From NCBI GenBank assembly GCA_025451075.1, contig JANWLA010000048.1, positions 1 through 48,629 on the forward strand: a stretch of DNA of 48,629 bases, written 5' to 3'. Of this stretch, positions 10,428 to 32,632 are shown piece by piece (position 1 is the stretch's first letter; the number at the start of each line of letters is the position of its first letter). The notes below the pieces were generated by a model. It saw only the letters and a list, made by a program, of their open reading frames with translations. It was not told the DNA's origin and made no database searches. The DNA comes from Nitrosotalea sp. GTDB lineage: Archaea > Thermoproteota > Nitrososphaeria > Nitrososphaerales > Nitrosopumilaceae. The position numbers were made by a program, and so were the translations under genes.

Positions 10428-11609
10428 AAACGAACAAAACAAAAACTGCAATAACCATAATGGGAGTAATAGTGATTGGATTGATAACGTCATCACCAAT
10501 GTTGGTATTGCCAAATGTTGGGGCCGTGACCAGTAATTTGACTCCTGACTGTACAGCAAAAGCTACCCAAATGGAAATTTCCATGGGTAAGCAAATAGAT
10601 GAGACAAAAGCAAAGGCATTAGCTACAGGCAATGCGGAGTTTTCAGGCAGAACATCTGGATATTCGCTTCTAGACGGTGGCATATTCAATACCTGGACAA
10701 TTGACAAAGTAACATGTACACCCACTCTGGAAAGTGTCAATGTCGTGTATTATCTAGATGATTCGCAAGGAAAATATCAAAAGAACTTTGGTATTTAGCA
10801 TGGATTCACAGCTAACCAAAGTGACCAAGATCGATGAATACGTAGCAATACACGCATCTTTAACCACCTACAGTTACAATTGGTCCGGTTATGAATTTGC
10901 AGCAGACTCTACGCACAGCACGCTAGTCACCGACGCATATGCTACCTTCACAGTACCTAGTGTAAGCAAACCCACGAATCACAATTGTTATCAGAATCCA
11001 GATAGCAGCTTTAATTGTCACTTGGCAGTCTGGGATGGATTGATGGATAATTGGGGTTCAAGCAGCACACACTTAGTTCAGGCAGGTACTGACGGTATCA
11101 TAGCATGTGACAGCAACGGCAACAACTGTTCTACATCCTATAGTGGGTGGTGGGAAGTTATAAAATCTGGAGCTGGTTCAAATAGTTGTTTGACTCCAAG
11201 TGCAGGTGACGCTATGACTGCGGAGGAAACACAGGACCATTTCACCTCTTCCACATACTACATTACCCTGACAGACAACACTTCGAGTCGTTCATGTAGT
11301 CACACAGAAACAGGATATGCTATGACCAGCCCTTCCGTAGCACCATTCATAGATGAAAGACCCGGTTATGTCGATCCGGTTACCCATGTATCATATTATT
11401 ACAACTTGGCAAAATTCGGATCCAACAGTATAACAGGTGACATCACATACAATGGTGCGGCCAATTCCATATACACTCCATATTCGAACGGCTACTACAG
11501 TCTTGACTATATGACAACCACCGGTGATTCATCGGGTACTAAATTCATAACCCCAATCAGCGCTGTTGGAACTACCGGGTCATTCACACAAACTTGGAAT
11601 ACAAGCTAG
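10424..11609 (+). pseudogene. Secreted glutamic (G1/eqolisin-type) peptidase, frameshifted copy
   Basis: Two frames together match the intact protein at 26943. The first (10424-10798, 124 residues) has the signal peptide and propeptide and ends ...VVYYLDDSQGKYQKNFGI. The second, entered near 10775, carries the catalytic domain: NWSGYEF, the Gln of LVQAGTD, and the Glu of APFIDER. Compared with the intact copy the junction is about 8 bases shorter, so a real deletion is more likely than a one-base error or programmed shifting. Catalytic residues remain, but the continuous frame is lost. A separate start at 10758 would give an enzyme without signal peptide. T-rich DNA follows the stop. Confidence 0.78.
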
Positions 11610-14111: not shown

Positions 14112-14588
14112 ATGAAAATACAAAACAACAAAACAACCATCGTAGTAGCTTTGTTTGTAGCCACCTTAGTACTTACATCATATAGTTCATTGTATAATGC
14201 TAGTGCTCAGACATCGATTCAAAATGGATCTGCGTCGTCAAAACATGATAGCAAATATTACTTGTCACAGTATAATACAATACATACACAAGTATTACAG
14301 CTAAGAAATGATGTGAATTCATTAGAAAATCAGATGCACACAATTAGTACACAAATACAGAAGCAAATTGATTCAAAAAATAGTCAAATCAATGTATTGT
14401 CCGATCAGCTTGATCAAATACAGGTAAAAAGTCGAGCTCTATTTGTTGTAGATCCGCAGACTAAAACCAAATTATATTCTGCAGAAAAACTACTAATAGA
14501 CAGATACATGAACAAACGTTCTGCATCTTATATTGGACCAAATGCTGTTGGTTTATTATTTGCTGATCTGGAACAAATCCACAAATGA
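14112..14588 (+). CDS. Secreted coiled-coil protein
   Basis: A 158-residue protein with a signal peptide (about 1-33, ending SASAQ-like NASAQ) and a long heptad-patterned helix from about 52 to 108 (LRNDVNSLENQMHTISTQIQ), then a short conserved-looking tail. Leucine and isoleucine at coiled-coil spacing predict an elongated dimer or trimer outside the membrane. It is driven by copy 2 of the secretome promoter repeat and is the first gene of the surface-protein array. The function is unknown. Confidence 0.72.
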   Translation: MKIQNNKTTIVVALFVATLVLTSYSSLYNASAQTSIQNGSASSKHDSKYYLSQYNTIHTQVLQLRNDVNSLENQMHTISTQIQKQIDSKNSQINVLSDQLDQIQVKSRALFVVDPQTKTKLYSAEKLLIDRYMNKRSASYIGPNAVGLLFADLEQIHK

Positions 14589-14637: not shown

Positions 14638-14856
14638 ATGAAAACTTTACATCTTTCAATAATTATAGGATTGTCTATTGTAACACTACAAGCGTTTGCT
14701 ACTGATATGCCTAGTTCAACTCCTGAAAATGTAGGTAATGATCATTATTCTTATACTGATAATACACCACAATTGCAATTCATTATTCCTGCGGTAGTGG
14801 TAATCATATCCATAATTACAGGAATTGCAATTTATTCTGGAGTAAGATCTAAATGA
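14638..14856 (+). CDS. Small secreted/membrane protein of the MKTLHLS array
   Basis: A 72-residue product from ATG 14638; an earlier ATG at 14614 would spoil the signal peptide. The signal peptide MKTLHLSIIIGLSIVTLQAF is followed by a polar linker (25-46) and a C-terminal transmembrane helix (about 48-68, FIIPAVVVIISIITGIAIYS). The stop overlaps the next ATG (ATGA). This is the first of the genes starting with the shared DNA motif. Confidence 0.65.
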   Translation: MKTLHLSIIIGLSIVTLQAFATDMPSSTPENVGNDHYSYTDNTPQLQFIIPAVVVIISIITGIAIYSGVRSK

Positions 14857-16142
14857 AAACACTACACCTTTCAATTATTACAATTGTTGGAATAGCAATT
14901 ACAATTATGTTGGCATTCTCATATGTAACACTGACAACACCTCATTCAACTATGACCATTGGTACTGGACCCATTCATGACGTTGATACCACAACAAATG
15001 GAATGACAAACACGTCAACAGAATCATCCTCCTTGAATAAAACCACAGTCAATGAATTGAAAATCATTCTTTCCAACCAAACTTATGATGCAGGATATCC
15101 GGTTACTGCGTTGCTTGATTTTATCACACATGATCCTGACTGCCAGCTACCGTCTGTACTTGTGAAAAATCTTTCCACAAATATGTCAGTATACGGACCT
15201 ATACTTTTATGGAATTATACAAATGCACAATGTTCCAATTCCACACGAGTCTCATTTTATGCGGGTCTTGAGAATAATCAATTAATCACAAATACAGAAA
15301 GATACCAAATCATAGCAACAATCTATGGAAAACAGTACAAGCGAGAGTTTACTGTTGTACCGTCAGAGTATTCGGGAAAAAATATCACTGCACAATCAAT
15401 TCTGCCTGGTTCTGACCCATGGTTGTCATGTCCTATAATTCCGGGCACTCGTACTAATGAAACCGTACTGGGTGCAAGCGGTTTTGATGGTGTGTATCAT
15501 CGTTATCTTACCACTTCATCTCCAAGCTATGAGGTGGATGATTATTTCCTAAAACCTGGGCACACTGGTAGAATAACTATTGAGATACATCCGGGTTCTG
15601 CATTTCCTGTTGGAGATAATCTTGCCGAAGGTGAATTGATTCTAAACAAGGACAGTCATTATGGTAATTTTGCTCATCCGGGGGTAAATACAAGCTATGA
15701 ACCAAGTGTGACAATAGCAGGATCTAACAGGTCTGCAACACTTTCTCTTGTGGTGTCTGCTATGCAAAATGCTACTTTTGGAACCTATTGGATGTATCTT
15801 CCGCCTGGAGGTTGTGGTGGTGGAGATGTGGTATTTTTGACAATTGGGGATAAACCAATGGCACAACCGCCTGATCTAATTGGATATGGTATGCCAGTTG
15901 ATTTTTCTTTTAACGAAAGTCCAATCTTGACTGCTGATGTGATAAACTTTGGAATACACACATTTGACAAGTGTTCTCTGACTTATGATCATGACAACAA
16001 AATCATGCTTACTGAAAACTTTGATGAGATACCGCCGGGATTTGTATATCGACATCATTTTGACTCAAATCCAGTGAAAGGTGACAAGGTTACATTTGAA
16101 TGTGTGATGCCGCATATCGTTAAGACCTATTCTCAGAATTGA
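14853..16142 (+). CDS. Secreted surface protein of the MKTLHLS array, beta-rich
   Basis: A 429-residue exported protein that begins MKTLHLSIIT with one hydrophobic segment, then a Thr/Ser-rich region and several beta-sandwich-like stretches with many N-glycosylation sequons. A C-terminal domain (about 350-425) contains FDKCSLTYDHDN and TFECVMP, possibly one disulfide. Gly-rich YLPPGGCGGGDV at about 315 may be a loop. No sorting tail or anchor is seen. Start and upstream stop overlap by ATGA. The family is not recognised. Confidence 0.68.
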   Translation: MKTLHLSIITIVGIAITIMLAFSYVTLTTPHSTMTIGTGPIHDVDTTTNGMTNTSTESSSLNKTTVNELKIILSNQTYDAGYPVTALLDFITHDPDCQLPSVLVKNLSTNMSVYGPILLWNYTNAQCSNSTRVSFYAGLENNQLITNTERYQIIATIYGKQYKREFTVVPSEYSGKNITAQSILPGSDPWLSCPIIPGTRTNETVLGASGFDGVYHRYLTTSSPSYEVDDYFLKPGHTGRITIEIHPGSAFPVGDNLAEGELILNKDSHYGNFAHPGVNTSYEPSVTIAGSNRSATLSLVVSAMQNATFGTYWMYLPPGGCGGGDVVFLTIGDKPMAQPPDLIGYGMPVDFSFNESPILTADVINFGIHTFDKCSLTYDHDNKIMLTENFDEIPPGFVYRHHFDSNPVKGDKVTFECVMPHIVKTYSQN

Positions 16143-16154
16143 TATGATTAGAAC

Positions 16155-17261
16155 ATGAAAACTCTACACCTTTCAATAACTTTGATTTTGATAACTCTAT
16201 TTGCTTGCATACAAATTCATCTGGTACAAGCTGATACTGCAACTATTCTGGATACTGGTGCACCTCCAATCACTGTAACCCAAGTTGAGTTGTGGGGACC
16301 CATTTCATTTTATGCTGATGGAGTAAAATCATGTATCGATAACAATACCTCAATAGGACCTTGGGCTATTGGCTGGTTAGAATTGTACAATACAAAAAAT
16401 ACAACCGTGCTGGTAAACGATGTAGATATCAAAGACGGTAATGGAGAGGGAGGTTATCCACAAATAACACTAGGTCCAAACGAGCACTGTTATATTCAAA
16501 TTCAAGACAGGCTTACCACTCGCATTGGGGTTGGCGGCGGACTAGGTAATGGTGCGCCAATACATGACAATGCTACGATACTCTTTTCATATTCCATTCA
16601 GCCTTTTGCTGGAAAAACACTTTACAAATATTCTACACCTAGTCTAAGTGATGATTATGGTGATACCAGAACCTGGCAGCAAATTGATGGAAAATGGATC
16701 TTCAAAGAGGCAAACATAATTCATGAATTTCCAGTCAAAACAACTCTACTGTCACCATCAAGACAAGTCCAGTACGGGATTTATGCTAAAGATCTAAACT
16801 GTAAAGTCGGCTCGGTAGTAATAATAAAAATGTCTGACCCGACAAATGAGTATCTGCAAGATAATCTTGCATGCGTGACCTCGTCTTCTGCATCTAAACT
16901 TGTAGATAGGGGCTGGGGCGTTCCACTACAGGCTATGCCCATACCTAATACAAATTCCACACTTTACTACTATGTTGAGGGAAGTAAGGTTGACAGAATC
17001 GTACCTGATCTGTCGACTCATGGGTTGACCTTGTCACTTGAAACTACTGGTGATAGCAAAATGACTCTGTTTATTCCTAGGAGTTTTATCGATAGTCCCA
17101 AAATTGGTGATTATGCTTCATTTAACGTAACGTCAAATGGAAACAAAATTGATTATCATGAGCATCTGATACCTACAGACAGAATGTTTACTATATTATT
17201 CAAAAATGGAACTAGTACAATGCAGATAATTCCAATACCAAATACAGAAAATCAAGGGTAG
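16155..17261 (+). CDS. Secreted three-domain array protein (lamin-tail-like, two-Cys module, PR-x-hID domain)
   Basis: A 368-residue protein with signal peptide MKTLHLSITL... (1-26). Residues about 40-190 (VTQVELWGP, WLELYNTKNTTVLVNDVDI, LGPNEHC, DTRTWQQIDGKWIFKE) follow the logic of lamin-tail domains and recur in the next gene. Residues 200-255 are a variant of the two-Cys module (CKVGSVVIIK...LACV...LVDRGWG), here without the SPLKQ start. Residues 265-360 carry the shared beta domain with LFIPRSFIDS. It combines three array modules in one protein. Domain names are by pattern. Confidence 0.68.
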   Translation: MKTLHLSITLILITLFACIQIHLVQADTATILDTGAPPITVTQVELWGPISFYADGVKSCIDNNTSIGPWAIGWLELYNTKNTTVLVNDVDIKDGNGEGGYPQITLGPNEHCYIQIQDRLTTRIGVGGGLGNGAPIHDNATILFSYSIQPFAGKTLYKYSTPSLSDDYGDTRTWQQIDGKWIFKEANIIHEFPVKTTLLSPSRQVQYGIYAKDLNCKVGSVVIIKMSDPTNEYLQDNLACVTSSSASKLVDRGWGVPLQAMPIPNTNSTLYYYVEGSKVDRIVPDLSTHGLTLSLETTGDSKMTLFIPRSFIDSPKIGDYASFNVTSNGNKIDYHEHLIPTDRMFTILFKNGTSTMQIIPIPNTENQG

Positions 17262-17272
17262 ATAAATTAAAG

Positions 17273-18661
17273 TTGAAAACTCTATACTTTTTAATAATTA
17301 TTGGAATCATGTTTGCTTCTTGTTTTGTTCTATCTGATACTCATGCTCAAGATTGTATGGGAGGACAGTACTGTGGAGGAAATATGACGTCTTCTACTTC
17401 TGCAGAAAATAGGAATATGACAGCAAGTCTAAATTTTTATTCAAATTCCACAATGCCACATGATGTTCACTATCTTTGGCTGCGGTTCTTTGATGCAAAA
17501 AATGACACATTGATAAAAAATGTCAGTTTTTTTATCAATGCAACAAAAGATAACCATGTTTTGATGCATCAGTTGTTTTATACCAAAACTGGTTTGATGC
17601 TGATGAAATTCTATCCTAGTCATGATACGGAAAAATTGATCATAAATGGAACTAGCGAACCAACACTGGGAGGAATTATGTCAGAAAATGACACATTACC
17701 TATCACAACGTCAGTATTTGCAGAGAATGGCACATACCATATTCATCTTGAGGTTTTAACTATGGATTATCCCAATAACATAATTGATCAAAACAATCCT
17801 CCTACGTTTGACTCTTGGTGGTCAGTAGATGACAAGGGAAATATTTCAAAATATGACACTATGAACAATCTTTCTGATACCAACAATGAAACAACAATCC
17901 CGCCGCAGATAATTCCCAATAATCAAGTTCCTCCGTTTAATACAAATTATTTGAGCAATCCAGTAATCATAACCCAGGTAGAACTAGCTACTGCACTTCA
18001 ACCAGGAAATCAATCTGGAACAGATTGTGCAGTATATCCTAATGGTACCAAGATATGTCGATCATACTATAGTCCATACAGTACAGATGTTCATAGTCCG
18101 TACTATAACATACAATGTGCTTTCTTCAACGGTATGTGCCAGTTAACACATCAAGTTGAAATGCTTGGTGATCAATGTGATTCGTTACAACAATATCCAC
18201 AAGGTACGCAATGGATCCAAATTTACAATCAGATGAACTCTACCGTACACCTGACACATTTTGGAGTTACACGTATACTCGATGATGTATTACACCTACA
18301 AAACATGCCTCCACAATATGCAGGTGCAGATTCTGTGGGGTCCACAAATTTCACAATGTCGCCCCATCAAATTTGTTCTTATGGTTTCATTGCAGGTCCG
18401 ATAGGTTCAGCATTGGAATTTCCACTAAATGATGCCTCGCTTGCAATTGTATATGATCAAGATGGTGTCCATCACGTAGCAGCAACACCATTTCTTGCAG
18501 ATTCATACAATGATACAAAAACATGGCAGTATGATGGAAACAAGTGGGTCTTTGCTGAACAAAACACCGTCAAAGTTCCCGAGTTTTCATTTGCAGTTCC
18601 AGTTATGTTGATTGGCATAATTTCTACAATTGTATTTTACAGAATGAGATTTAGAAAATGA
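17273..18661 (+). CDS. Surface protein with lamin-tail-like domain and PEF-CTERM-like tail
   Basis: A 462-residue protein starting at TTG 17273, a one-base variant of the array start motif. After the signal peptide (1-24) come a beta domain and then, at about 225-430, the lamin-tail-like domain shared with the preceding gene (VIITQVELA, WIQIYNQMNSTVHL, ATPFLADSYNDTKTWQYDG). The last 28 residues (435-462) start VPEFSFAVPV, continue as a hydrophobic helix and end FYRMRFRK: a PEF-type sorting signal of the kind cut by archaeosortases. It is therefore probably cell-surface anchored. The stop overlaps the next start. Confidence 0.72.
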   Translation: MKTLYFLIIIGIMFASCFVLSDTHAQDCMGGQYCGGNMTSSTSAENRNMTASLNFYSNSTMPHDVHYLWLRFFDAKNDTLIKNVSFFINATKDNHVLMHQLFYTKTGLMLMKFYPSHDTEKLIINGTSEPTLGGIMSENDTLPITTSVFAENGTYHIHLEVLTMDYPNNIIDQNNPPTFDSWWSVDDKGNISKYDTMNNLSDTNNETTIPPQIIPNNQVPPFNTNYLSNPVIITQVELATALQPGNQSGTDCAVYPNGTKICRSYYSPYSTDVHSPYYNIQCAFFNGMCQLTHQVEMLGDQCDSLQQYPQGTQWIQIYNQMNSTVHLTHFGVTRILDDVLHLQNMPPQYAGADSVGSTNFTMSPHQICSYGFIAGPIGSALEFPLNDASLAIVYDQDGVHHVAATPFLADSYNDTKTWQYDGNKWVFAEQNTVKVPEFSFAVPVMLIGIISTIVFYRMRFRK

Positions 18662-19989
18662 AAACTCTACATCTTTCAATAATTATGGCTTTTCTGGGAT
18701 TTACTGGTCTGATGCTATCATGTGATAATTCTGTTTATGGAATATGGGTTTCACAGTCTCCTCAAGAACTTTTGAACGACAGCGCTACAATATTTGTTGG
18801 AAATATTACCTCTGTGAATATTTTACACTTTGCAAAAACACAATTATCCACCATGGAAGAAAATGGTACTGATAAAAATATTGTAAGAAATTATACTCTG
18901 AGTCTTGATGAATACAAGGTAGACGTAGAAGAATTTCTGGAAAATCCTCAAAATGCAAACAAAATTACTGTTAGACAACCAGTAACTAATTGGTCTCCTG
19001 GCATGCTTGGAGGATTAGATGAATTCCATGTTGGAGATCGTGTATTATTTTACGTAAAAAATCTTGATGGAAATAATACGTATTCTCCAGAATCATTCAT
19101 AATTCCAAAGTTTTGTGTTGCAAAAGATGTTCTTACACAAAAAAAACTTGAAGCAAGAGGAGAATCGTTTACAATTCAAAATGGCGTAAAAGTTGACAAT
19201 AATTTCACTGCAAACCATCCGATTTACTTTGTTGATAATGAAAATGATTATACGCTTTCTGGAAAAAGCTTTGATACGCTGGTTCGCATAACAAAGATCA
19301 CAGGTTCAAGTCCAGAGATTGTTTTAAGCAAAGAAATTCATTCTGAAGCCAAACCGTGTGAATGGATAGCATCATCAGCGTGGGAATTTACTCCCCAGGA
19401 AGGAGAATACCGAATGGATGTCACTATAAAAGAAGATAACAAAACATATGCACAATACAACGATAAATTTTTTGTTAAGCCAGACGTTGTAACATCAGAT
19501 TATGTATCCCCTCTAAACCAACTCAAGTCAGGTATTGCAGCAAATGATGTCCTTTGTAGGCCTGATCTACAGTTGTTGGTTGAAAATCATGAAGGACTAC
19601 CAATCTGTGTGAAACAAAATTCTGTTTTCAAATTATTACACCAAGACTGGTCGTATCCAAGTAATTGCAAGTATGACCAAAATGTATTCACTGCAGGGGT
19701 AGGAGGTCTCATCACGATTGAAAAGAACGCAAGTAATCCGTCTTCTGGCAAGTCATATGCTCCAACAAACAGCACAGTTGTGATTGGTTGGAATAATACT
19801 ATATCTTGGATAAATCTTGATGATACACCAAGTAGTGTTACAAGTGATTGGAATCTCTTTGATTCTAGTCCAATCCTTCCAGGACAAGATTGGAAGCACA
19901 GCTTTGAATGTGTGGGAAATTATGGATATCACAGTGAACCGCACCCATGGATGAGAGGATCGATAAGGGTATTACCACCGGATAAGTGA
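18658..19989 (+). CDS. Secreted protein with two-Cys module and cupredoxin-like domain lacking copper ligands
   Basis: A 443-residue protein with signal peptide MKTLHLSIIM and a possible lipobox-like Cys22. A first domain (about 35-160, VFLAN-type DSATIFVGNITSV) and an Ig-like domain (185-275) lead to the two-Cys module (283-333, with HQDW replacing ERGW). The C-terminal domain (346-440) is cupredoxin-like: ISWINLDDTPSSVTS and YGYHSEPHPWM. The usual first His is Ser392 and the Cys ligand is Ser426; His429 and Met432 remain, and His425 is extra. A type 1 copper site is thus unlikely. Start overlaps the previous stop. Confidence 0.7.
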   Translation: MKTLHLSIIMAFLGFTGLMLSCDNSVYGIWVSQSPQELLNDSATIFVGNITSVNILHFAKTQLSTMEENGTDKNIVRNYTLSLDEYKVDVEEFLENPQNANKITVRQPVTNWSPGMLGGLDEFHVGDRVLFYVKNLDGNNTYSPESFIIPKFCVAKDVLTQKKLEARGESFTIQNGVKVDNNFTANHPIYFVDNENDYTLSGKSFDTLVRITKITGSSPEIVLSKEIHSEAKPCEWIASSAWEFTPQEGEYRMDVTIKEDNKTYAQYNDKFFVKPDVVTSDYVSPLNQLKSGIAANDVLCRPDLQLLVENHEGLPICVKQNSVFKLLHQDWSYPSNCKYDQNVFTAGVGGLITIEKNASNPSSGKSYAPTNSTVVIGWNNTISWINLDDTPSSVTSDWNLFDSSPILPGQDWKHSFECVGNYGYHSEPHPWMRGSIRVLPPDK

Positions 19990-19993
19990 TGAC

Positions 19994-21187
19994 ATGAAAA
20001 TTCTATTTTATTTCATGATTGCAATTCTTTGCACTAGTCTTATTTTTGCTAGTCATACTGTATATGCTGATGGTGTGACATCGCCTGGCTCTTTTCTAAA
20101 AAAGTGTAATGACAGCACATCGCAAATTCCAACCCTAAAACCTCAGAGTGATAATTCCTCAACTCCAAAACAAGAGATACTTCTCATGCAGCCAAATTCG
20201 GTTGCTATGGTCTGCATAAAATATGTCAGGCCATCTGGTTGGCATTCTTCTATTGATATCAACAATGCAAAACTTGATCACCCATTGCCAGTAGAAGTTG
20301 AAAATGTCCATGTTTCTGGCAGTTTACTTTCGTTTGGCGGTCTATTTGTAAACAATGTGATAATATCCCAAGCCCAGCCAAATACAATTTCTTTTGGTTC
20401 GCAGGAAAATGCTAGTACTGTAATTTTATACACTGTCTCAGCCAAGTCTGATTCAAAGGGATATTATCATTTGGCATTACCTTACGTGTGTGAAGATATT
20501 CCGCTTGCAGTTGGATATGATACATCACAGCTTGACGCGTCTGCTTTTCAGGATCTGGATAAAATGTGCTTTAACTTTGGTGTTGAAACTTCCATAGTGG
20601 GAATTAGTGGAGCCAACATGACATATGTTGATAGATCAAATGAAACAATACATTCTACAAAATTGGCTGGAAATATTTCAATAATTCCTCCGTTGCAACA
20701 GGTAAAACTTTTTGACACTAGTGCAAAATCTGTACGATGCAATCTTGGTCTTCAATTAATTATTAAAACAGAAGATGGTGTTCCATCATGTGTCAAGCCT
20801 GATACTGCCTCTATATTGTTAAATCGAGGATGGGCTGCGCCAAATATGATAAAATCTGATGTAATCTCAGATCATATTGATATAGTTTCAGTCAAATCTG
20901 TTTTGCCGGTAACACCTGGCGGACCTACAGTCCAGATTACATTGAAAAATACTGGCACCAAACCAATAACTAGTCTTAAAGCAACACTTCATCTCAATAA
21001 TTCATACGTGTTTAATTTCACAAATGTGACGCCCTCTCAACCTCTTGCTGTAGGAAATTCTGCATCTGACACTGAAATTCTAATCGGTGGGGGATTTACA
21101 ACTGGATTTCCATATGGTCTTGCAATAACTGGAACTCAGGATGGAATGCCATTTGGCTATGATGTAAATGTCCACATTTTATCATAA
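19994..21187 (+). CDS. Secreted array protein with two-Cys RGW module
   Basis: A 397-residue exported protein; signal peptide about 1-25 (MKILFYFMIAILCTSLIFAS). Central beta domains are followed by the two-Cys module at 231-282 (PPLQQVK...VRCNLGLQLIIKTEDGVPSCVKPDTASILLNRGWA) given here only as pattern pieces: PPLQQVK, VRC, EDGVPSCVKPDT, NRGWA. The C-terminal domain (about 285-397) looks Ig-like (TVQITLKNTGTKPITSLKA). It starts four bases after the previous gene. No anchor. Function unknown. Confidence 0.68.
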   Translation: MKILFYFMIAILCTSLIFASHTVYADGVTSPGSFLKKCNDSTSQIPTLKPQSDNSSTPKQEILLMQPNSVAMVCIKYVRPSGWHSSIDINNAKLDHPLPVEVENVHVSGSLLSFGGLFVNNVIISQAQPNTISFGSQENASTVILYTVSAKSDSKGYYHLALPYVCEDIPLAVGYDTSQLDASAFQDLDKMCFNFGVETSIVGISGANMTYVDRSNETIHSTKLAGNISIIPPLQQVKLFDTSAKSVRCNLGLQLIIKTEDGVPSCVKPDTASILLNRGWAAPNMIKSDVISDHIDIVSVKSVLPVTPGGPTVQITLKNTGTKPITSLKATLHLNNSYVFNFTNVTPSQPLAVGNSASDTEILIGGGFTTGFPYGLAITGTQDGMPFGYDVNVHILS

Positions 21188-21290
21188 TTTGTTGGAATAA
21201 AATCTTGGGTAATCAAAATTATGTTGTATGTAAAATTCATCAGGGTTTGTTAATTTTAGCTAGAAGAAACCTGCGTCACTTTTTTAAATC

Positions 21291-22238
21291 ATGTCTGTCC
21301 AGTACGTGTACTTGAAAGTTCTAATAATTACTATTATAATTGCAGCATCTATTGCAATAATTGCATCCATTTCGCTTGTTGCAATTCCTGATACTCAAGT
21401 CCACACTTGTACATCATGCCAAAACATTCCAAGTTCGGGCCAACCCTTAGAAATAACACATCTTTCCATTGAACCGTCCACAGTCACTTTAGGAACAAGT
21501 TTTCTAATATATGCAGATGTCTTTAATCCAAATCCATACTCAATATCTGTAAACAATGGATGTGTCTCTTCAATTTCTGCAACCTTTGATAAAAACGTGG
21601 AAACCCAAAAAGGGATTTCGTGTTTTTCTATATCAAAACAAGAAATACAATCACTTCAAAAAACACGGATACATGGGCCAAGTATAGGAACTATCTATAA
21701 TGCTACATCTGTAGGAAATACAAATGCTACAATTATGATATCTTATGTAGCAGAGGGATCCGTTGGCACTGTTACAACATTCAAGAATTTTACCATATCT
21801 CAACAGTTCCCACCTCATCCGGGTCCAACTCTTGAGGAACAGTTAGGTCTTGCCCACACTGAAATTAATCAGCCTACGAAAACAACCATGTTTGATACTA
21901 GACTCTATCCTTTTTCTATTAATGTGACAAATACTGACTTTACAGTAAACTACAACATATCTGGAGGCCAAGTCAAATCTGCCACACTTGACATGCCAAG
22001 CAAATCTCTCATCTTGTCAGTCACAACCGCTGAAAACGAAACACTAGTAATTGATCTTCCACGTGCACTGATTGATCCAAAGATAGAAGGTCAAGACAGT
22101 GCATTTATCGTTCTAGATGATGGACAAGAAGTATTGCCTAAACAAATAGCAACTACTGGTACCGACAGAGTACTTGACATTCCGTTTCAATCTGACATAT
22201 CTCAAATTCAAATCATTGCACCTGTTCCAATACGATGA
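21291..22238 (+). CDS. Surface protein with N-terminal anchor and PR-x-hID beta domain
   Basis: A 315-residue protein. The hydrophobic segment (about 8-34) may be a signal peptide or an uncleaved anchor. An Ig-like domain (50-170) is followed by the shared beta domain (about 205-310) with YNISGGQVKSATLD, LVIDLPRALIDP and DRVLDIPFQ. The start is uncertain: ATG 21291, GTG 21306 or TTG 21312. The TTG gives MKVLIIT, similar to the array motif, and a TATA-like TTTTTTAAAT at 21279-21288 fits the downstream starts better. The stop overlaps the next ATG. Confidence 0.65.
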   Translation: MSVQYVYLKVLIITIIIAASIAIIASISLVAIPDTQVHTCTSCQNIPSSGQPLEITHLSIEPSTVTLGTSFLIYADVFNPNPYSISVNNGCVSSISATFDKNVETQKGISCFSISKQEIQSLQKTRIHGPSIGTIYNATSVGNTNATIMISYVAEGSVGTVTTFKNFTISQQFPPHPGPTLEEQLGLAHTEINQPTKTTMFDTRLYPFSINVTNTDFTVNYNISGGQVKSATLDMPSKSLILSVTTAENETLVIDLPRALIDPKIEGQDSAFIVLDDGQEVLPKQIATTGTDRVLDIPFQSDISQIQIIAPVPIR

Positions 22239-23737
22239 AAATGAAAATTCTACATCTCTTAATTTTATCTGGTTTGATTCCGATTTTTATTATTGGTATG
22301 AATGAAGCTCATGCACAACATGGCTGTCCACCAGTTTCTGGAGGATGGGATCCGGTAATATCTACAGATCAAAATAATGTCTATGTGTTTTGGAATTATT
22401 TCTTTGGATGTGGGCAACGAGTTCTTTTATTTGAGAAAAGCAACGACAATGGAATCACATTCACAGGTCCAGTTACTTTGGAAAACTCGACCCAATCTGG
22501 AAGTTCTCCCGTTGTTGTAGCATCAAATGGTGACGTGTACGTATCTTGGATCAATTACCATTCACCAGACAGACTGTATTTCAAGATGAGTGGTGATGGG
22601 GGTTCAAGTTTTGGAGATCCTGTTCAGGTCAGCATGAATGGCACAATTCAAAGCGATGTATATGACATACTTGCATCAGGAAACAACATTGGAATAATCT
22701 GGGCAGGACAAATTACAAACCAAACAACACGTTCAGTCTTTCTTAGCGAAAGTACAGATGAGGGAAGGACATTTGGCGACACAAAAGTTCTTAGCACTAC
22801 AGGAGATTCATTTCAACCTCAAGCAGTTCAAGTGGGTTCTAAAGCTTATGTTCTTTGGTCATCTTTTGGAAACTGTAGTGGAAAACAAGATTGCATGTTG
22901 CATGTGTACTTTACTACAATAGATATCCAAAATGAATTTGCAACTAGCTCAATCACTAGTCTTGGTCCACTTAGTGTTCCAAGACTTGCAGTTTCTGGAA
23001 ACAATGTCTATGTTGCTGGCGCAACAAGTACTAATGCAGATCCTAGCATTGGCAATAGCGGAGTATCTTTTGTGAAAAGCACAGATGGTGGTGTCTTGTT
23101 TGAAAAACCTGTGCAACTGGTAACTTATGTAGCCTCTTCAAACTATCTCAATGATTTGGCATTGGATTCCTCGGGAGATCATGTCTATGTCACTTGGCAT
23201 GACCACGATCCTCACAGTGGTGAAAAACTCTTGATGGCTGCAAGCTCTGATGACGGGAATACTTTTGGTAATATGCAGACACTTGACGGTCCAGACTTGA
23301 GTTATAATGGCAATGAACCTTATTCACTTGATAAACAAGTATCCACATCAGGTAGCAATTATTCCATCATCTGGCAAAGCCATACTTCCCTTGGTCTAGG
23401 TGTCGGAGAAGGAATATTTTTTAGAAAAAGCATTGACGGCGGTCAAACACTAGGCAATGCAACGGATCTCACAAACAGGATTGTCATATCAAATCCTGGA
23501 TACGCAATTGCATCAAGTGGAAATAACCTCTACATTGCAGGCCCAGACTATGGCTTTCAAGATGGTAACCACATAGTGTTTTCACAAAGCCCTGATGGCG
23601 GAATTTCATTTTCCAATTCAACAGATTTTGACCAAAACAGCATGTCAACAGTGCCTGAATTTCCTTTTACAGTTCCGGTTTTGTTGATTGGAATAGTATC
23701 TGTTATTGCATTTTACAGGGTGAAATTTAGAAAATGA
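22235..23737 (+). CDS. Sialidase-like beta-propeller surface protein with PEF-CTERM-like tail
   Basis: A 500-residue exported protein; signal peptide about 1-27 (ILHLLILSGLIPIFIIGM). The body carries at least six Asp-box-like repeats: SNDNGITF, SGDGGSSF, STDEGRTF, STDGGVLF, SSDDGNTF, SIDGGQTL, SPDGGISF, the signature of BNR/sialidase-type propellers. I do not see the arginine triad needed to call an active sialidase, so a binding role is equally possible. Residues 473-500 (VPEFPFTVPV...FYRVKFRK) form a PEF-type sorting tail almost identical in plan to the one at 17273-18661. Both starts and stops overlap neighbours by ATGA. Confidence 0.75.
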   Translation: MKMKILHLLILSGLIPIFIIGMNEAHAQHGCPPVSGGWDPVISTDQNNVYVFWNYFFGCGQRVLLFEKSNDNGITFTGPVTLENSTQSGSSPVVVASNGDVYVSWINYHSPDRLYFKMSGDGGSSFGDPVQVSMNGTIQSDVYDILASGNNIGIIWAGQITNQTTRSVFLSESTDEGRTFGDTKVLSTTGDSFQPQAVQVGSKAYVLWSSFGNCSGKQDCMLHVYFTTIDIQNEFATSSITSLGPLSVPRLAVSGNNVYVAGATSTNADPSIGNSGVSFVKSTDGGVLFEKPVQLVTYVASSNYLNDLALDSSGDHVYVTWHDHDPHSGEKLLMAASSDDGNTFGNMQTLDGPDLSYNGNEPYSLDKQVSTSGSNYSIIWQSHTSLGLGVGEGIFFRKSIDGGQTLGNATDLTNRIVISNPGYAIASSGNNLYIAGPDYGFQDGNHIVFSQSPDGGISFSNSTDFDQNSMSTVPEFPFTVPVLLIGIVSVIAFYRVKFRK

Positions 23738-24786
23738 AAACTCTACCTCTATCAAAATTTTCTATCTTTATGATAGCAATAGTTATCTTTGCTATTAGTT
23801 GGTATGCCGTAATTGTATATAATTCACCTTCAGCAACATCCCATCAAAATGAAAGAATATTTCTCTTAGATCCGTACGACAAATCTCAAGAGCGATATGC
23901 CACGATATATAATATGAACCCAAACAGTGCTGGGTTTTTTATGTATCCGCCATCGTACACGTCTAATCCTGAAAATTCATATCAAAGATTTCTGCTTATT
24001 CGCCTTCCTGAATGGCTCGGTGGTGACAAGGACAATGTATCTGCATTTAGGGCATATAGCGCACTTGATTTGACTTCACACTGTGTGGTAAAATACTGGC
24101 CTCAGAACGGTAGGCAGAGAATCGAAGATCCATGTAGTGGAAGTATGTACAGGTCACTTGATGGATATCTACTCACAATTGGAAATAGAATCTTGTTGAA
24201 TGGAAACAATGCACTGCCACAATTAGATCTTGTTTCAGATAATGAAGGGTATCTCTATGTCAAACCACCTAAATTTACCGATGAAGAGAACGGTGCAATC
24301 GGAATTGGAAGAAAACTTTCTCAAGAGGAGATAAACAATTCAACCATATTCATAAACCAGCATCCATCCCTGTCGCAAGAATACTACTTTAGAGCTCCTC
24401 CAAAATTTACAAATGGTTTTGAGGCACTCACAATAACTGGAGATGAATATGCCGAAAAAATCATTTATGCAAAACAGGGTTTTAGAAATGATAACATGAC
24501 GTTGCTCTTAAAATATTGCGATTGTACAAAATTTCAACCTTGGTTAGAACAATTAACACAATATTCACAGTTGTGGAAGGTCGGAGATTACTTTATTCTT
24601 GCAACGCCAAATTCAGTAGGATATAACAAGTATTCTGACTATGAATTTGTCTTTTACAAAGACAACTACAAGGTCACCTTTCTAACAGGTAGACAATTTG
24701 AGGAGGGAATGAAACTAACTCTTGATAACTTTTTTAATGGCACAAGTATTTCCGAGATCCAAAAAATTTCCATGGGGCTACATTAA
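23734..24786 (+). CDS. Membrane-anchored protein with ligand-less Rieske-like domain
   Basis: A 350-residue protein starting MKTLPLSKF with one N-terminal transmembrane or signal segment (about 9-30). Residues about 85-180 resemble a Rieske domain: FRAYSALDLTSHC...VEDPCSGSMY-type pattern (here IEDPCSGSMYRSLDG) and a closing LPQLDLVSDNEGYLYV. Aligned on C-T-H-L-G-C and C-P-C-H-G-S, the four cluster ligands are Asp112, Thr114, Asp132 and Ser135, while the two disulfide cysteines (Cys117, Cys134) are kept. It cannot hold a normal [2Fe-2S] cluster. The C-terminal half is unassigned. It is the last gene of the first array block. Confidence 0.68.
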   Translation: MKTLPLSKFSIFMIAIVIFAISWYAVIVYNSPSATSHQNERIFLLDPYDKSQERYATIYNMNPNSAGFFMYPPSYTSNPENSYQRFLLIRLPEWLGGDKDNVSAFRAYSALDLTSHCVVKYWPQNGRQRIEDPCSGSMYRSLDGYLLTIGNRILLNGNNALPQLDLVSDNEGYLYVKPPKFTDEENGAIGIGRKLSQEEINNSTIFINQHPSLSQEYYFRAPPKFTNGFEALTITGDEYAEKIIYAKQGFRNDNMTLLLKYCDCTKFQPWLEQLTQYSQLWKVGDYFILATPNSVGYNKYSDYEFVFYKDNYKVTFLTGRQFEEGMKLTLDNFFNGTSISEIQKISMGLH

Positions 24787-26942: not shown

Positions 26943-26946
26943 ATGA
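26935..26946 (+). promoter_or_regulatory. Three-codon upstream ORF before the intact peptidase
   Basis: ATG AAA AAA TGA, five bases behind AAAAGGA, ends in the ATGA that contains the peptidase ATG at 26943. Same design as at 10416. Confidence 0.5.
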
Positions 26947-28178
26947 ATATGCGATATGATAAAACAAAAGTTGTAATAACATTTGCGACCTCTCTAGCAC
27001 TCATGGTGGTAATGTTATCTCCAACTGCAATACTGCCCGCAATAGATGCCATGCAACAAGGAACTGTGTCAAAATTGAACCTAAAGGAAACACCACCTGC
27101 ACAAGAGACATCGTGTACAGATATTCTTACAAAAAAAATACAAGAAAAAGGTCTGTCTATTGATAACGAAAAAGCAAAATCATTGGCCATATCAAATACT
27201 GAATTCAAAACAAGAATCCAAGGATATATTCCACAATTTAACAGTGTGAATATCATTGGCTCGTATGATCCAAAAACTTGTGCTGTAACTTGGGATCATG
27301 TCAACGTAGTTTATTCACTTAACAACGCGAAAGGATACGTTAAGAGTATCTATGTAGCAGAAGATCCATCATTAGCAAACATCACTAGTTTCGTAGAAAA
27401 GATAGACAAACATGTGGCATCGTCAAATAGTCAGACAGATACATGGTCTGGTTATGAGTTCTATCACCCGGTTACTCCTGGTGGAATTACTCAAATATAT
27501 GAAGCCAAATCTACGTGGACCATACCAACTATAACGAATCCTGGAAATCCAACACCGGGCAATTGTGCCAATGAATGTGATATGGATATTTGGCCAGGAC
27601 TTGAGGATTCAGTTGGAGGTGGAAGCTATCTGGTACAAGCAGGTAGTGATTCCAACATTGGATGTAGTACCTGTTCTGCTACGTACGAACTATGGTATAC
27701 ATTCTTAACAAATGGTTCTCCGACTATCAACAGTGCTTGCACTGGTTTTACACCAACCGTTGGAGATTCAATAACCACAGATATCAGTGACACAACAAAA
27801 AATATTCATGCTAGTTCTTCTACATATGTTATATCATTTGTAGATAATACGCATTCGAATAGTGGGCTTTGTGGTACTTCTGGTACCAGCTTTGGATTGA
27901 ACGATCCATTATATGCACCATTTATTGTTGAACGAGCATCTACCTCGGGTTCTGCAGAAGAATTGGGTGAATGGTCTTCTGGCATTCCAGTTACTGGCAA
28001 AGTGGATTGGAGTGGAACACTTTCAAGCATCTACACTCCATATAATGCAGGTGACTATACCTTCGATAATATGACAAATCCTCAACCTGCAGATACTTAC
28101 CAGAATACCATAGTTGGAACACCGAATGGGGGAGGAACATATGACACTTGGTGGAATACAAGTCTAGGCACACCATAG
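26943..28178 (+). CDS. Secreted glutamic peptidase, G1 (eqolisin)-type
   Basis: A 411-residue precursor: signal peptide (about 1-36), a propeptide-like region to about residue 165, and a beta-sandwich catalytic domain starting at WSGYEF (168). The two catalytic residues of G1 peptidases are recognisable as Gln232 in LVQAGSD and Glu330 in APFIVER, with family landmarks STWTIP, IWPGLEDS and YELWYTF. Eqolisins act at acid pH; here it would digest proteins outside the cell. It is controlled by copy 3 of the promoter-leader repeat and the mini-ORF. A frameshifted relative lies at 10424. Many cysteines suggest disulfides. Confidence 0.82.
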   Translation: MNMRYDKTKVVITFATSLALMVVMLSPTAILPAIDAMQQGTVSKLNLKETPPAQETSCTDILTKKIQEKGLSIDNEKAKSLAISNTEFKTRIQGYIPQFNSVNIIGSYDPKTCAVTWDHVNVVYSLNNAKGYVKSIYVAEDPSLANITSFVEKIDKHVASSNSQTDTWSGYEFYHPVTPGGITQIYEAKSTWTIPTITNPGNPTPGNCANECDMDIWPGLEDSVGGGSYLVQAGSDSNIGCSTCSATYELWYTFLTNGSPTINSACTGFTPTVGDSITTDISDTTKNIHASSSTYVISFVDNTHSNSGLCGTSGTSFGLNDPLYAPFIVERASTSGSAEELGEWSSGIPVTGKVDWSGTLSSIYTPYNAGDYTFDNMTNPQPADTYQNTIVGTPNGGGTYDTWWNTSLGTP

Positions 28179-28247
28179 TGCCAGACCCAATTTTTTTTAT
28201 TCAACAAATGACTGGATTTATTTTTAATTCTCTGAAAATCTACGTCA

Positions 28248-28257
28248 TTTTTTTAAG
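28248..28257 (+). promoter_or_regulatory. TATA box of the gene at 28279
   Basis: TTTTTTTAAG preceded by ACGTCA is centred about 27 bases before ATG 28279, implying a leaderless transcript. GCGTCA plus TTTTTTAA also precedes the gene at 21291. Confidence 0.5.
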
Positions 28258-28278: not shown

Positions 28279-29337
28279 ATGAAACTTAACAATGGTTTTT
28301 TATTCATAATTCTAGGATTATCTATTCTCATATTTATTCCAAAAATTTCCATTATATATGGAGAAGATAACTCACAAAATAGTTTATTATATGTATCAAA
28401 GATAGATCCTAAAATTTTGAAAGTACTAGATAGAGTAAATACTGTGGGTGACAGCTTTCATACCCTTGTTGATGTAATACTTGAGAATCAGAGTTACGTA
28501 TCTGACATACCAAAGGATATCGAGATGGTGTATTTAAAAAATAATATTGCTGGAGTGGCAGTAGATCAAGACCAAATCATGAATCTTGCAAGGCTTGATT
28601 TTGTAAAACAAGTAACTGCACCAAAGGGTGTTTTTAATGAAAATGTAAATGCGAGTATTGCTAATCCGCCAGCTCCTTTAAAGCAGTATGAATCTGGAAT
28701 TGTGTCAAAATATATCAAGTGCAAATACGGATCTGATCTGCTAATAATGCAAAGATCAGACAGCAATGGAAACTATTCCTCGCCTGCTTGTTTTAATTGG
28801 AATGACGAAATCGAGGCTCAACATAAAGGCATTGGAAAAATAGTAAACAACCTGGTCAAGACAAAGTTTTGGAATTTATTTGGGGTTCTGCCTAGTACAA
28901 AATCATTTTTCATGGAACACAATTCTACAGGTAGTATATCTGTCAAGTATCTTATTTACAAGGGTGATTTTGCGAAACAACTGATAAGCCAAAAACCACA
29001 AGTTTTTTCAAATGGGTTGCCTCTTTCTACATCTGATGTAACTATATCTTCAGAACCTACACTGGATTCATTGCCTAGTGGGCAGAACAACATTACTGTA
29101 ACCTATACGATAAAAACATCGGGTGCAAATGGACTTTACTCTGTCTACATACCACAAGAGGGTTGTAAGAAACCATTTCCTCTTGTTGTTGGAATGAATG
29201 TCAGCAAAATTTCTAGTGCAGATGTTGCAACATATCTCGGCAATATTGCATGTTCTTCAATCACCTATGATAGTGAAATAGTGCATATCTCTGGCATATT
29301 GATAAAATGGCTTCCATCAGAACCATATTTTAATTGA
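28279..29337 (+). CDS. Secreted protein with I9-propeptide-like N-domain and two-Cys module
   Basis: A 352-residue exported protein with signal peptide (1-28). Residues about 55-115 (TLVDVILENQSYVSDIPKDI, VAVDQDQIMNLARLDFVKQV) have the alpha/beta order of subtilisin propeptides/I9 inhibitors. A divergent two-Cys module follows at 131-180 (PAPLKQYESGI, Cys148, Cys171; no RGW). The C-terminal beta domain is unassigned. It is 100 bases behind the glutamic peptidase. A protease-inhibitor or chaperone role for the N-domain is speculative, and I9 domains normally act on serine peptidases. Confidence 0.6.
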   Translation: MKLNNGFLFIILGLSILIFIPKISIIYGEDNSQNSLLYVSKIDPKILKVLDRVNTVGDSFHTLVDVILENQSYVSDIPKDIEMVYLKNNIAGVAVDQDQIMNLARLDFVKQVTAPKGVFNENVNASIANPPAPLKQYESGIVSKYIKCKYGSDLLIMQRSDSNGNYSSPACFNWNDEIEAQHKGIGKIVNNLVKTKFWNLFGVLPSTKSFFMEHNSTGSISVKYLIYKGDFAKQLISQKPQVFSNGLPLSTSDVTISSEPTLDSLPSGQNNITVTYTIKTSGANGLYSVYIPQEGCKKPFPLVVGMNVSKISSADVATYLGNIACSSITYDSEIVHISGILIKWLPSEPYFN

Positions 29338-29344
29338 TGATGAA

Positions 29345-30319
29345 ATGAAAACTCTGCAACTCTTAATCCTGGTAGTGATTTTTTTAATGATACTTGGAAA
29401 TGCTAATTCATATGCATTAAATTTTGAATCTGTAAAGTCAAAGTATTATCCGCTTGTACATGTCACTACATTGAACGCTGTCATAACTAACAGTTCGACA
29501 TTTAAAGAAAAGATACATGGATATCATTACAATCTAATAACAACAATTTCCAAGGTGAGATATCTCCAAAACAATAGTTATGAATTGGGACCAACAGATG
29601 TGATATACTATCTACATGTCTCCAATTTTCCCAACCCTGACAAGGCACTGGTTGTCACAATTGATCAAAACCAACAGATACTTGGTATGACTGAATGTTC
29701 TCCTTGGAGTCTTCCACTAGGTTATCCTTTGCCGCTAATAGATACATCGCTTTATGTTCCAGAAAACTATACTGCGTCAAAGATTGACCTGGATAAACTG
29801 GTCATTATCATGCCCCCTTCCCCGCTAGAACAGGTAAAACACGGAGTTGCTGTAAACGATGTGGATTGTTTTCAAGGCCTACAACCTCAAGAACTGATCT
29901 TCAAATCAGAAGACAAATCGCCCGCATGTGTGAATCCTGGGTCTACAAGGTATCTGATAGAACGCGGCTGGGCAATAAACCAGACAAATCAAGAATGGTT
30001 CAACCTAGTTGATGAACATGTGGGAGAAATTACTAAAAACAAGAATGGTACAGTAGGCGCAATGGAACTAATTAGTATGCATATACAAAATTTCCAGGTT
30101 TTTTCTCCGCCTGTCACTGTTAAAATCTTTTACACAAATGGCACGCTGTATAAAACTGATGAAATATCATCTAATGATATTCTACCTAATGGTTACTACA
30201 AATACAATCTTACAATCTCATCCACAGATGTAACTAATGTCTTTGGTGATCATCGCGTATATGTGGAACATAATGACAATATCGGAGAAATACTAGTAGG
30301 GATTCCGCCACCACCATAA
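29345..30319 (+). CDS. Secreted array protein with two-Cys RGW module
   Basis: A 324-residue protein starting with the array motif (MKTLQLLILV), signal peptide 1-24. The N-domain (30-150) shows SKVRYLQNNSYELGPTDVIY, a beta-rich fold I do not recognise. The two-Cys module is complete at 158-210: SPLEQVKHGVAV, Cys175, KSPACVNPG with Cys195, LIERGWA. The C-terminal domain (220-324) looks Ig-like and ends in a proline stretch. It lies seven bases behind the previous gene, so the two are cotranscribed. Confidence 0.68.
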   Translation: MKTLQLLILVVIFLMILGNANSYALNFESVKSKYYPLVHVTTLNAVITNSSTFKEKIHGYHYNLITTISKVRYLQNNSYELGPTDVIYYLHVSNFPNPDKALVVTIDQNQQILGMTECSPWSLPLGYPLPLIDTSLYVPENYTASKIDLDKLVIIMPPSPLEQVKHGVAVNDVDCFQGLQPQELIFKSEDKSPACVNPGSTRYLIERGWAINQTNQEWFNLVDEHVGEITKNKNGTVGAMELISMHIQNFQVFSPPVTVKIFYTNGTLYKTDEISSNDILPNGYYKYNLTISSTDVTNVFGDHRVYVEHNDNIGEILVGIPPPP

Positions 30320-30321
30320 AA

Positions 30322-30381
30322 ATGAAAACTCTACATCTTTCCAGTTTTAAAGGGGGAACTAAACTAAGTGAACAAAACTAA
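30322..30381 (+). pseudogene. Truncated array gene (start motif only)
   Basis: Two bases behind the previous stop, ATGAAAACTCTACATCTTTC repeats the array start exactly (MKTLHLS), then the frame runs straight into the repeat that precedes the tRNA-His-like site and stops (SFKGGTKLSEQN). The gene has lost everything beyond its seventh codon, which marks a recombination breakpoint. Confidence 0.75.
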
Positions 30382-30404
30382 GTGAACAAAACCCCTCAAG
30401 GGCC
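30350..30404 (+). repeat. tRNA-His 3'-end-like repeat B with conserved left flank
   Basis: CCCCTCAAGGGCC (30392-30404) is identical to the tRNA-His T-stem/acceptor end. The left flank GGGGGAACTAAACTAAGTGA is shared with repeats C and E; within it ACTAAGTGAACAAA is present twice. It fits an attachment-site relic. Confidence 0.7.
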
Positions 30405-32594: not shown

Positions 32595-32632
32595 GGGGAA
32601 CCAAACTAGATGGACAAAACCCCTCAAGGGCC
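32595..32632 (+). repeat. tRNA-His 3'-end-like repeat C
   Basis: CCCCTCAAGGGCC at 32620-32632, with left flank GGGGAACCAAACTAGATGGA like repeats B and E. It is followed at about 20 bases by the copied tRNA-His terminator. Confidence 0.7.

Follow-up and report, generated by a model that had tools for sequence, protein, structure and literature searches.

A conserved gene start as a probable recombination seam in the surface-protein gene arrays of Nitrosotalea

Introduction

Contig C48 of a Nitrosotalea sp. genome (1.66 Mb in 70 contigs; NCBI GenBank assembly GCA_025451075.1, contig JANWLA010000048.1) is a stretch of 48,629 nucleotides, here called the window, and carries a tandem array of genes for secreted-looking proteins. 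The question raised by this locus is why genes whose products differ so widely in length and domains begin with nearly the same DNA. An earlier note on positions 14638-24786, made from the sequence alone, read the array as a cassette-style system for diversifying the cell surface, in which either new coding parts are joined behind a fixed signal-peptide start or duplicated genes diverge except there. Comparison with the rest of the genome and with 37 genomes of the same genus (Ca. Nitrosotalea) indicates that the shared start is probably a recombination seam, at which short-homology recombination between start repeats moves whole genes. Genomes, contigs and fetched loci are numbered G, C and L, respectively.

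Range of the start motif

The start repeat is about 30 base pairs (bp) long (AAA-ATG-AAA-ACT-CTA-CAT-CTT-TCA-ATA-ATT). Its motif, ATGAAAACTCTACATCTTTC, is found at 7 window sites with at most 3 mismatches, compared with 0.02 matches per window in dinucleotide shuffles, and the genes at 29345 and 17273 follow with 4 and 5 mismatches, which bears out the shared start described in the earlier note. The array reaches past 14638-24786, with more motif copies at 29345 and 30322. The frequent ATGA overlap with the previous stop codon is likewise real: it occurs at four window starts (14853, 18658, 22235, and 23734) and at 77 of the 302 motif copies on 40 array contigs.

These 302 copies were collected at up to 5 mismatches with an intact TGAAA, a search that gave 9 in reversed sequence. 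An open reading frame (ORF) of at least 60 amino acids (aa) starts at the motif within 25 bp of an upstream stop in 188 of them, and in 71 no ORF ends in the 40 bp before the motif. In most of the cases that lack an upstream ORF, a promoter box is present instead. Like integrons, the arrays consist of promoterless genes that all point the same way, each with a single site.

A search of the whole genome, suggested by the earlier note, returned 28 sites at up to 3 mismatches (reversed-pattern control, 0) and further arrays on contigs C15, C23, C25, and C41. The motif was also considered as the antisense partner of a stable RNA. The fetched sites of this both-strand scan were diverged copies, short stubs or starts of ORFs, and no RNA gene was recognised among them; the Rfam scan covered the window, where it found one tRNA.

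The 37 genus genomes contain 366 sites at up to 3 mismatches, against 11 for the reversed pattern. Each genome has at least one match, and those with one to three are not clearly over the control. G025 (sed-bin190) has the most copies (65); with 7% contamination and unequal contig coverage, this bin may mix strains. One or two matches occur in each of 9 genomes out of 24 from other families, for a total of 13 compared with 7 in the control. An exact AAATGAAAACTCTACATCTTTC scan of 84,980 bacterial and archaeal species genomes yielded 29 stretches, all titled Thaumarchaeota archaeon or Candidatus Nitrosotalea. IMG/VR contains 0 exact motif matches, and a viral origin of the motif was rejected on this count.

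Conservation at the DNA level

Synonymous codon use separates conservation of the DNA from conservation of the protein, and it was measured at MKTLHL starts chosen by protein rather than by DNA sequence (79 sites in 30 fetched loci, 70 of them distinct). The codon background was supplied by 353 ORFs in these loci, with 116,744 codons. Lysine is encoded by AAA in 69 of the 70 starts, threonine by ACT in 53 (background 0.306, P=1e-14), Leu-4 by CTA in 48 (background 0.155, P=3e-23), and Leu-6 by CTT in 60 (background 0.277, P=6e-24). CAT for His-5 is the exception (54/70, background 0.693, P=0.096) and is not significant. In a repeat on 40 contigs with one weight per mature-protein family (97 ORFs, 57 families), CTA reached 38.8/57 (P=5e-18), CTT 47.3/57, and ACT 42.4/57, and CAT was again not significant. 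A one-per-family codon table from motif-selected genes is biased, and the counts relied on come from the protein-chosen starts and the family-weighted repeat.

Conservation over 234 non-redundant motif sites runs from -3 to +26. Third positions outside the search pattern hold 0.48, 0.39, and 0.28 bits at +20, +23, and +26 and 0.05-0.08 bits at +29, +32, and +35; past +26, only a codon-phased pattern of hydrophobic residues is left. The gene start is conserved at the DNA level, well beyond protein-level selection, except for the CAT of His-5. The view that protein-level selection alone preserves it, which the earlier note had proposed to check at synonymous sites, is rejected by the codon use at protein-selected starts.

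Junctions between relatives

A near-identical pair of arrays, G025:C177 and G006:C192, matches at 99.62% over 12,672 bp and at 99.73% over a further 1,477 bp, and between these blocks G025 is longer by 5,023 bp. Both ends of the difference share exactly AAATGAAAACTCTACA, 16 bp over the start codon. The extra G025 segment reads as a 133-aa gene, the motif, a gene run that includes a second promoter, the motif again, and an 83-aa gene. In G006, the 83-aa gene stands directly after the 133-aa gene, and the sequence follows the first G025 copy until the motif is reached and the second copy from there onward. The same short repeat is present at both ends of the longer version and in one copy in the shorter one. 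A repeat of 16 bp is too short for collapse by an assembler with words of 21 or more, and both contigs continue for more than 1 kb on each side. The difference would be a deletion in G006 rather than an insertion in G025.

A second difference between these two genomes is a 2,736-bp insertion in G006:C192 (L062 15471-18206) that is absent from G025. It has an 8-bp terminal direct repeat and encodes a protein with an IS240-type DDE transposase domain, with a second ORF that has no Pfam match. It is apparently an ordinary mobile element that interrupts a G006 array gene.

Colinear blocks on the 40 contigs (255 high-scoring segment pairs (HSPs) of at least 250 bp and at least 75% identity) contain 7 indel-type breaks. 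Three of these have the motif on at least one side in both partners: the G006/G025 difference, own contig C46 against G035, and a 1.1-kb difference between G005 and G028. In the last case, where the flank is 93% identical, a promoter drives a 161-aa gene in G005, and a 379-codon ORF with a diverged start separates that promoter from the 157-aa homologue in G028. The flank and promoter on C46 are 93.5% identical to those of G035 and are joined to another gene, which in G035 lies 1.5 kb farther along and has its own promoter. Gene content and order, which the earlier note wanted compared among relatives, are not shared, and the differences are often joined at the motif.

The same comparison supplies 974 interior block ends, with each HSP pair counted on both loci and some pairs lying within one genome. 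Block ends fall at -30 to +45 of the motif in 391 cases, whereas 200 random placements in the same covered sequence gave a mean of 55 and a maximum of 75. An end is carried by 175 of the 190 motif sites touched by blocks and by 47 of 115 other gene starts. In a smaller run on 30 loci, 56 of 85 mosaic-junction rows lie at the motif; there is redundancy among the rows, and part of the other 29 arose artificially where contigs were cut into fetched pieces.

The position of the joint follows from identity profiles around the block ends. At 39 five-prime ends (at least 85% identity, between genomes), the profile stays at 0.25-0.30 between -60 and -4, as in random motif pairs, and is then 0.95 at 0 to 9, 0.78 at 10 to 19, and 0.80 at 20 to 29 (random pairs: 0.89, 0.65, and 0.51). 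At 31 three-prime ends, identity is 0.64-0.68 before -3, 0.90 at 0 to 9, and about or below random from +10. As judged from these profiles, the joint maps to about -3 to +10, which means that most of the signal peptide would travel with the gene. The joining of new coding parts at the start is supported, and their fusion behind a complete fixed signal peptide is not, since the whole gene would move with most of its signal peptide.

Exchange at the start also changes what lies upstream. Among 76 gene-start pairs picked via motif-near blocks, there are 24 in which the gene leads its operon in one genome and lies inside an operon in the other. Two such pairs have the start codon TTG in the leader and ATG in the internal copy, with the same sequence shown from TGAAAACTC on. 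A set chosen independently of blocks comprises 85 reciprocal-best pairs of motif genes between genomes (at least 60% amino-acid identity over at least 70% of the longer protein), of which 12 were dropped as G025/G006 pairs or as lying near contig ends. The remaining 73 include 53 pairs with both members inside an operon and 18 that combine a leader with an internal gene. Mean upstream identity (-55 to -4) is 0.32 for internal/internal and 0.28 for leader/internal pairs, reaching at least 0.5 in 4/53 and 1/18, respectively; mean identity at +30 to +89 is 0.75 and 0.69. With upstream DNA unlike and downstream DNA alike, what precedes an array gene is usually new as far as its start. Orthologous motif genes (at least 70% amino-acid identity) keep a homologous neighbour in 5/49 cases downstream and 6/49 upstream; for non-motif genes of the same contigs, the counts are 6/22 and 8/20.

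Proposed mechanism and alternatives

These results suggest that each array gene is a promoterless cassette running from its own start codon to the start codon of the next gene. For the downstream gene, the repeat would provide the start codon and the codons next to it; where an ATGA overlap occurs, it would also contain the stop codon of the gene before. Recombination that depends on homology, by slippage, annealing or crossover between two copies, would delete, duplicate or exchange whole genes, and general repair enzymes would carry it out. An unbroken run of at least 12 bp through the start codon is found in 32% of random motif-gene pairs and in 0.2% of other gene pairs, both counted in samples. 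Because the conserved leaderless-type promoter of the leaders stays behind, an exchange would set the gene behind a different promoter, and the reading frame and operon would stay unbroken. Reuse of the seam might in turn keep the motif sequence conserved. As conservation extends to +26, beyond the joint, a longer pairing or a second function in translation may be needed.

Several observations weigh against a recombination seam. In a control restricted to starts close behind a same-strand gene, a block end lies at 130/136 motif starts and at 23/27 non-motif starts (P=0.06), where many of the 27 look like diverged motif copies and several do not. Block ends alone therefore do not separate motif-driven exchange from the survival of intact genes, and selection for intact genes may contribute. 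The ends in the joint profiles were picked for nearness to the motif, which by itself accounts for part of their low upstream identity, and the leader/internal count of 24/76 likewise rests on blocks chosen for ending near it. The recent indel is a single event, and one partner is the G025 bin with its contamination. Three of the seven indel-type breaks lie off the motif (the IS-like insertion in G006, a 4,960-bp G005/G028 difference, and G018/G029), and a fourth, between the window at 19994 and G036, is at a start whose window copy is diverged (6 mismatches). Third positions are conserved to +26, past joints at -3 to +10.

Two of these observations, the in-operon control and the conservation past the joint, are what would be expected if the start were conserved for translation initiation or coupling, for the mRNA 5' end or for membrane targeting, with rearrangements occurring anywhere and only junctions at gene boundaries surviving. 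We consider this unlikely. It does not account for 16 identical bp at both ends of the recent indel, nor for upstream DNA that is unrelated in 17 of the 18 leader/internal pairs chosen regardless of DNA blocks (below 0.5 over -55 to -4): some carried-over upstream DNA need not be harmful, yet unrelated DNA prevails. The leader gene at 28279 and a secreted-looking window gene at 14112 moreover manage without the motif (9 and 10 mismatches). Simple tandem duplication followed by divergence, in which selection on the protein would preserve the start of the signal peptide, is highly improbable. WING-49 domains in 39 of 100 representative proteins make common descent of part of the cargo real, but synonymous codons are fixed far over background with an effect that ends at about +26, and the poorly kept gene order (5/49 and 6/49 neighbours) does not fit tandem descent either.

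Genes that mostly lack promoters and share one orientation, a single short site for each, and orphan sites at operon ends would also suit a dedicated site-specific recombinase that uses the motif as its site, in an archaeal integron-like system. The recombinase searches leave this reading little probability. The tyrosine recombinase family PF00589 matches in 26 of the 37 genomes, and 11 have no match at E<=1e-5; these include G005 (a single contig, 99% complete) and G011 (99%), both of which have motif copies. Among the motif copies listed, only those on G028:C10 and G025:C99 include one with a PF00589 match at a distance of about 5 kb or less, so that this search of the 37 genomes found no integron-type integrase regularly next to the arrays. 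The serine recombinase family PF00239 was found in 0 of 9 genomes. The 14 most recurrent non-motif families listed include none that is recombinase-like (three were scanned with Pfam). Crossover points also appear to differ, lying before +14 in G006/G025 and at about +19 to +22 in C46, although the latter is a weak case with diverged copies. A tyrosine or serine recombinase was thus rejected as the driver, in searches that do not reach an enzyme of another family or one encoded far from the arrays. There is a slim chance of a dedicated archaeal cassette system, in which the start-codon region would be the site of an unrecognised recombinase and the orphan motifs at operon ends would be landing sites for new surface-protein genes.

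A recombination seam remains the probable reading, and the cassette behaviour proposed in the earlier note is supported by both the synonymous sites and the relatives. The exchange is read from comparison of genomes rather than observed directly, and diversification of the cell surface would be its outcome. A free-living archaeon with a small genome could in this way reshuffle its cell surface through one short sequence that is at once stop codon, start codon, beginning of the signal peptide, and recombination seam. Rearrangements via the seam would stay in frame and in the operon. The model suggests why array content differs so much between Nitrosotalea species, and it makes a prediction that can be counted in sequences: the joint should lie within about -3 to +20.

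Comparison with known systems

In integrons, gene cassettes form arrays in which most genes lack a promoter, all face the same way, and have one short site each. The Nitrosotalea arrays are alike in these respects but have no integrase consistently beside them, and their site is the coding start itself. Trypanosome variant surface glycoprotein (VSG) cassettes carry short homologies at their ends, belong to a eukaryote, and are subject to monoallelic expression and gene conversion. The likeness lies in surface-protein genes exchanged between arrays via short homologous ends.

An archaeal precedent is described in the parts consulted of a report on Haloquadratum walsbyi, where deletions occur between direct repeats of 4-20 bp and can be coupled to insertions (PMC3119063). 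Strain-specific segments there are flanked by short direct repeats (10-19 bp in 16 cases), of which the other strain has just one copy, and the genes that deletion-coupled insertion has exchanged include that for the S-layer glycoprotein (PMC3119063). Unlike those repeats, which according to the same parts are not one common sequence (PMC3119063), a single repeat marks the start codon of most array genes in the genus Nitrosotalea, and exchange here keeps genes whole and can change their promoter.

The nearest design is the vpma/vsp locus of Mycoplasma agalactiae and M. bovis, a multigene surface-protein locus with recombination sites at gene starts, as far as the sections consulted describe it (PMC2268961). 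Conserved DNA lies before and over the signal-peptide start with differing coding parts beyond; the putative sites are at -1 to -72 in the 5' untranslated region, and inversions are made by the Xer1 recombinase, encoded nearby, behind one promoter (PMC2268961). By comparison, the Nitrosotalea joint is in the coding start at about -3 to +10, exchange is between direct repeats, no recombinase is consistently nearby, and each genome has several promoter boxes, versus one promoter per locus in Mycoplasma-type phase-variable loci.

The arrays would fall under repeat-mediated gene shuffling, with breakpoints concentrated at the repeat alongside the in-operon counts given above, and one genus-wide repeat at the start codon is the new part. 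No description of them was found among the open-licence papers that the searches listed, as judged by titles and the beginnings of abstracts. A term search did not find them in one Nitrosotalea genome paper (PMC5767755), and the parts consulted of another (PMC4836417) and of a survey of thaumarchaeal mobile elements (PMC6563490) do not mention them.

Array genes of the window

The array genes, promoter boxes, and orphan motif of the window are all on the + strand, and the array products range from 72 to 500 aa, in keeping with the wide differences in length noted earlier. The first is a 72-aa gene (14638..14856, 1 mismatch to the motif) that begins MKTLHLSIIIGLS and has a similar gene on own contig C41 (L014 7569). 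It overlaps by ATGA with a 429-aa gene (14853..16142, 2 mismatches), which is followed by a 368-aa gene (16155..17261, 1 mismatch) with a WING-49 domain at 201-255. The 462-aa gene at 17273..18661 has a TTG start with 5 mismatches and a PEF-type C-terminal segment, read directly from the sequence. Its seam is a mosaic junction: the preceding gene matches G006, G025, and G010, and the 17273 gene itself matches own contig C25. The exact motif, in an ATGA overlap, starts a 443-aa gene (18658..19989) with WING-49 at 285-331 and a cupredoxin-like C-terminal match below the cut-off. A 397-aa WING-49 gene at 19994..21187, absent from the earlier note, has a diverged motif with 6 mismatches; in G036, homologues of this gene and of the stretch before 19994 are about 8 kb apart.

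A TATA-like promoter box of the array-leader type (21270..21288, 3 mismatches) precedes an operon-leader gene (21312..22238) with a probable leaderless TTG start at 21312. Its ORF is listed from 21291, which sits inside a promoter element common to other operon leaders, and on this anatomy 21312 is probably the true start and the called one wrong. The leader's 8 mismatches make it only a loose match to the motif; of the two looser members named in the earlier note, the motif ATG at 22241 is the better one, with 3 mismatches. It belongs to a 500-aa gene (22235..23737) in an ATGA overlap, with BNR-like and PEFG-CTERM-like matches that are both below curated cut-offs; its homologue is an operon leader in G035, which appears to be N. 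devanaterra. A 350-aa gene (23734..24786, 2 mismatches, ATGA overlap) belongs to a 9-member family by clustering.

A second promoter box (28239..28257, 2 mismatches) precedes the 352-aa leader gene without the motif (28279..29337), which has a sub-cutoff WING-49 match, and a 324-aa WING-49 gene with 4 mismatches (29345..30319). The stub reported at 30322 does share the start: an exact orphan motif (30322..30341) stands 2 bp behind the last stop of the operon and opens a 19-codon ORF but no gene. Elsewhere in the window, two secreted-looking proteins (10758-11609 and 26943-28178) are alike by eye; the first matches Peptidase_A4 and the second has no Pfam match.

Leader promoters, orphan motifs and a dispersed repeat

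Among 68 non-redundant motif copies that lack an upstream ORF, most have AGAAxxCTACACCA-TTTTTTAAA in common, with GTCCAGTACGTGTA coming next, immediately ahead of the start; this arrangement would be a leaderless archaeal promoter. A promoter-box search at up to 3 mismatches gave 37 matches against 26 in the reversed control for G000, 28 against 29 for G005, and 28 against 26 for G035. Since two of the three genomes gave about as many matches as the control, only matches with 0-2 mismatches are informative, and many of these are within arrays. The downstream element GTCCAGTACGTGTA touches the start codon (for example, in the window boxes at 21270 and 28239 and in L014, L015, and L010) and is possibly the operator of one regulator for the whole leader set.

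Orphan-like copies, within 25 bp of an upstream stop and starting an ORF of fewer than 30 codons, make up 22 of the 302 motifs. Several, like the one at 30322, precede unrelated DNA and look like the right-hand seam of the last cassette; others, such as L011 6245 with a blastx match further on, may be decayed genes. The orphan motif at 30322 is abutted by a GTTTTAAAGGGGGAACTAAACTAAGTGAACAAAACCCCTCAAGG-type copy of a dispersed repeat (30343..30398, + strand) with an extra 14-bp unit compared with other copies. This 45-bp repeat, TGTTTTAAAGGGGGGAACTAAACTAAGTGAACAAAACCCCTCAAGGGCC, occurs in 13 of the 37 genus genomes. Further copies are in the window at 32598-32624 and 36859 (- strand), in L010 at 10615 and 11446, in L060 at 1774, and in L075-L094. 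About 8 of the copies shown are directly behind an orphan or diverged motif, and elsewhere the left contexts are different. The repeat may mark the end of a mobile element, or it may act in 3' processing or termination; its RNA structure has only 4 consensus pairs.

Cargo proteins

The cargo was surveyed in 100 scanned representatives of 160 listed. NCBIfam WING-49 is present in 39 of them and PEFG-CTERM in 2; Pfam matches comprise MG2 in 9, BNR-like repeats in 5, cupredoxin-like domains in 5, and various beta-propellers. This variety agrees with the domain diversity claimed in the earlier note. Naming of cargo functions by Pfam mostly failed, and matches were confined to NCBIfam WING-49 and to MG2, beta-propeller, and cupredoxin types. 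These domains and the hydrophobic starts suggest that the cargo consists of secreted or surface proteins. WING-49 matches over the cut-off in the window are at 16155, 18658, 19994, and 29345 and, outside the array, at 11720. Single-linkage clustering merged 181 of 251 genes, and stricter clusters were used.

A stand-alone protein with CDC48 N-terminal domains (Pfam on one copy), too short for an AAA ATPase, recurs by clustering in or near the arrays of 8 genomes. Its loci include L141 13652-14632, L012 2843-3754, and L127 8576-9544, and further copies are in L063, L056, L065, L132, and others.

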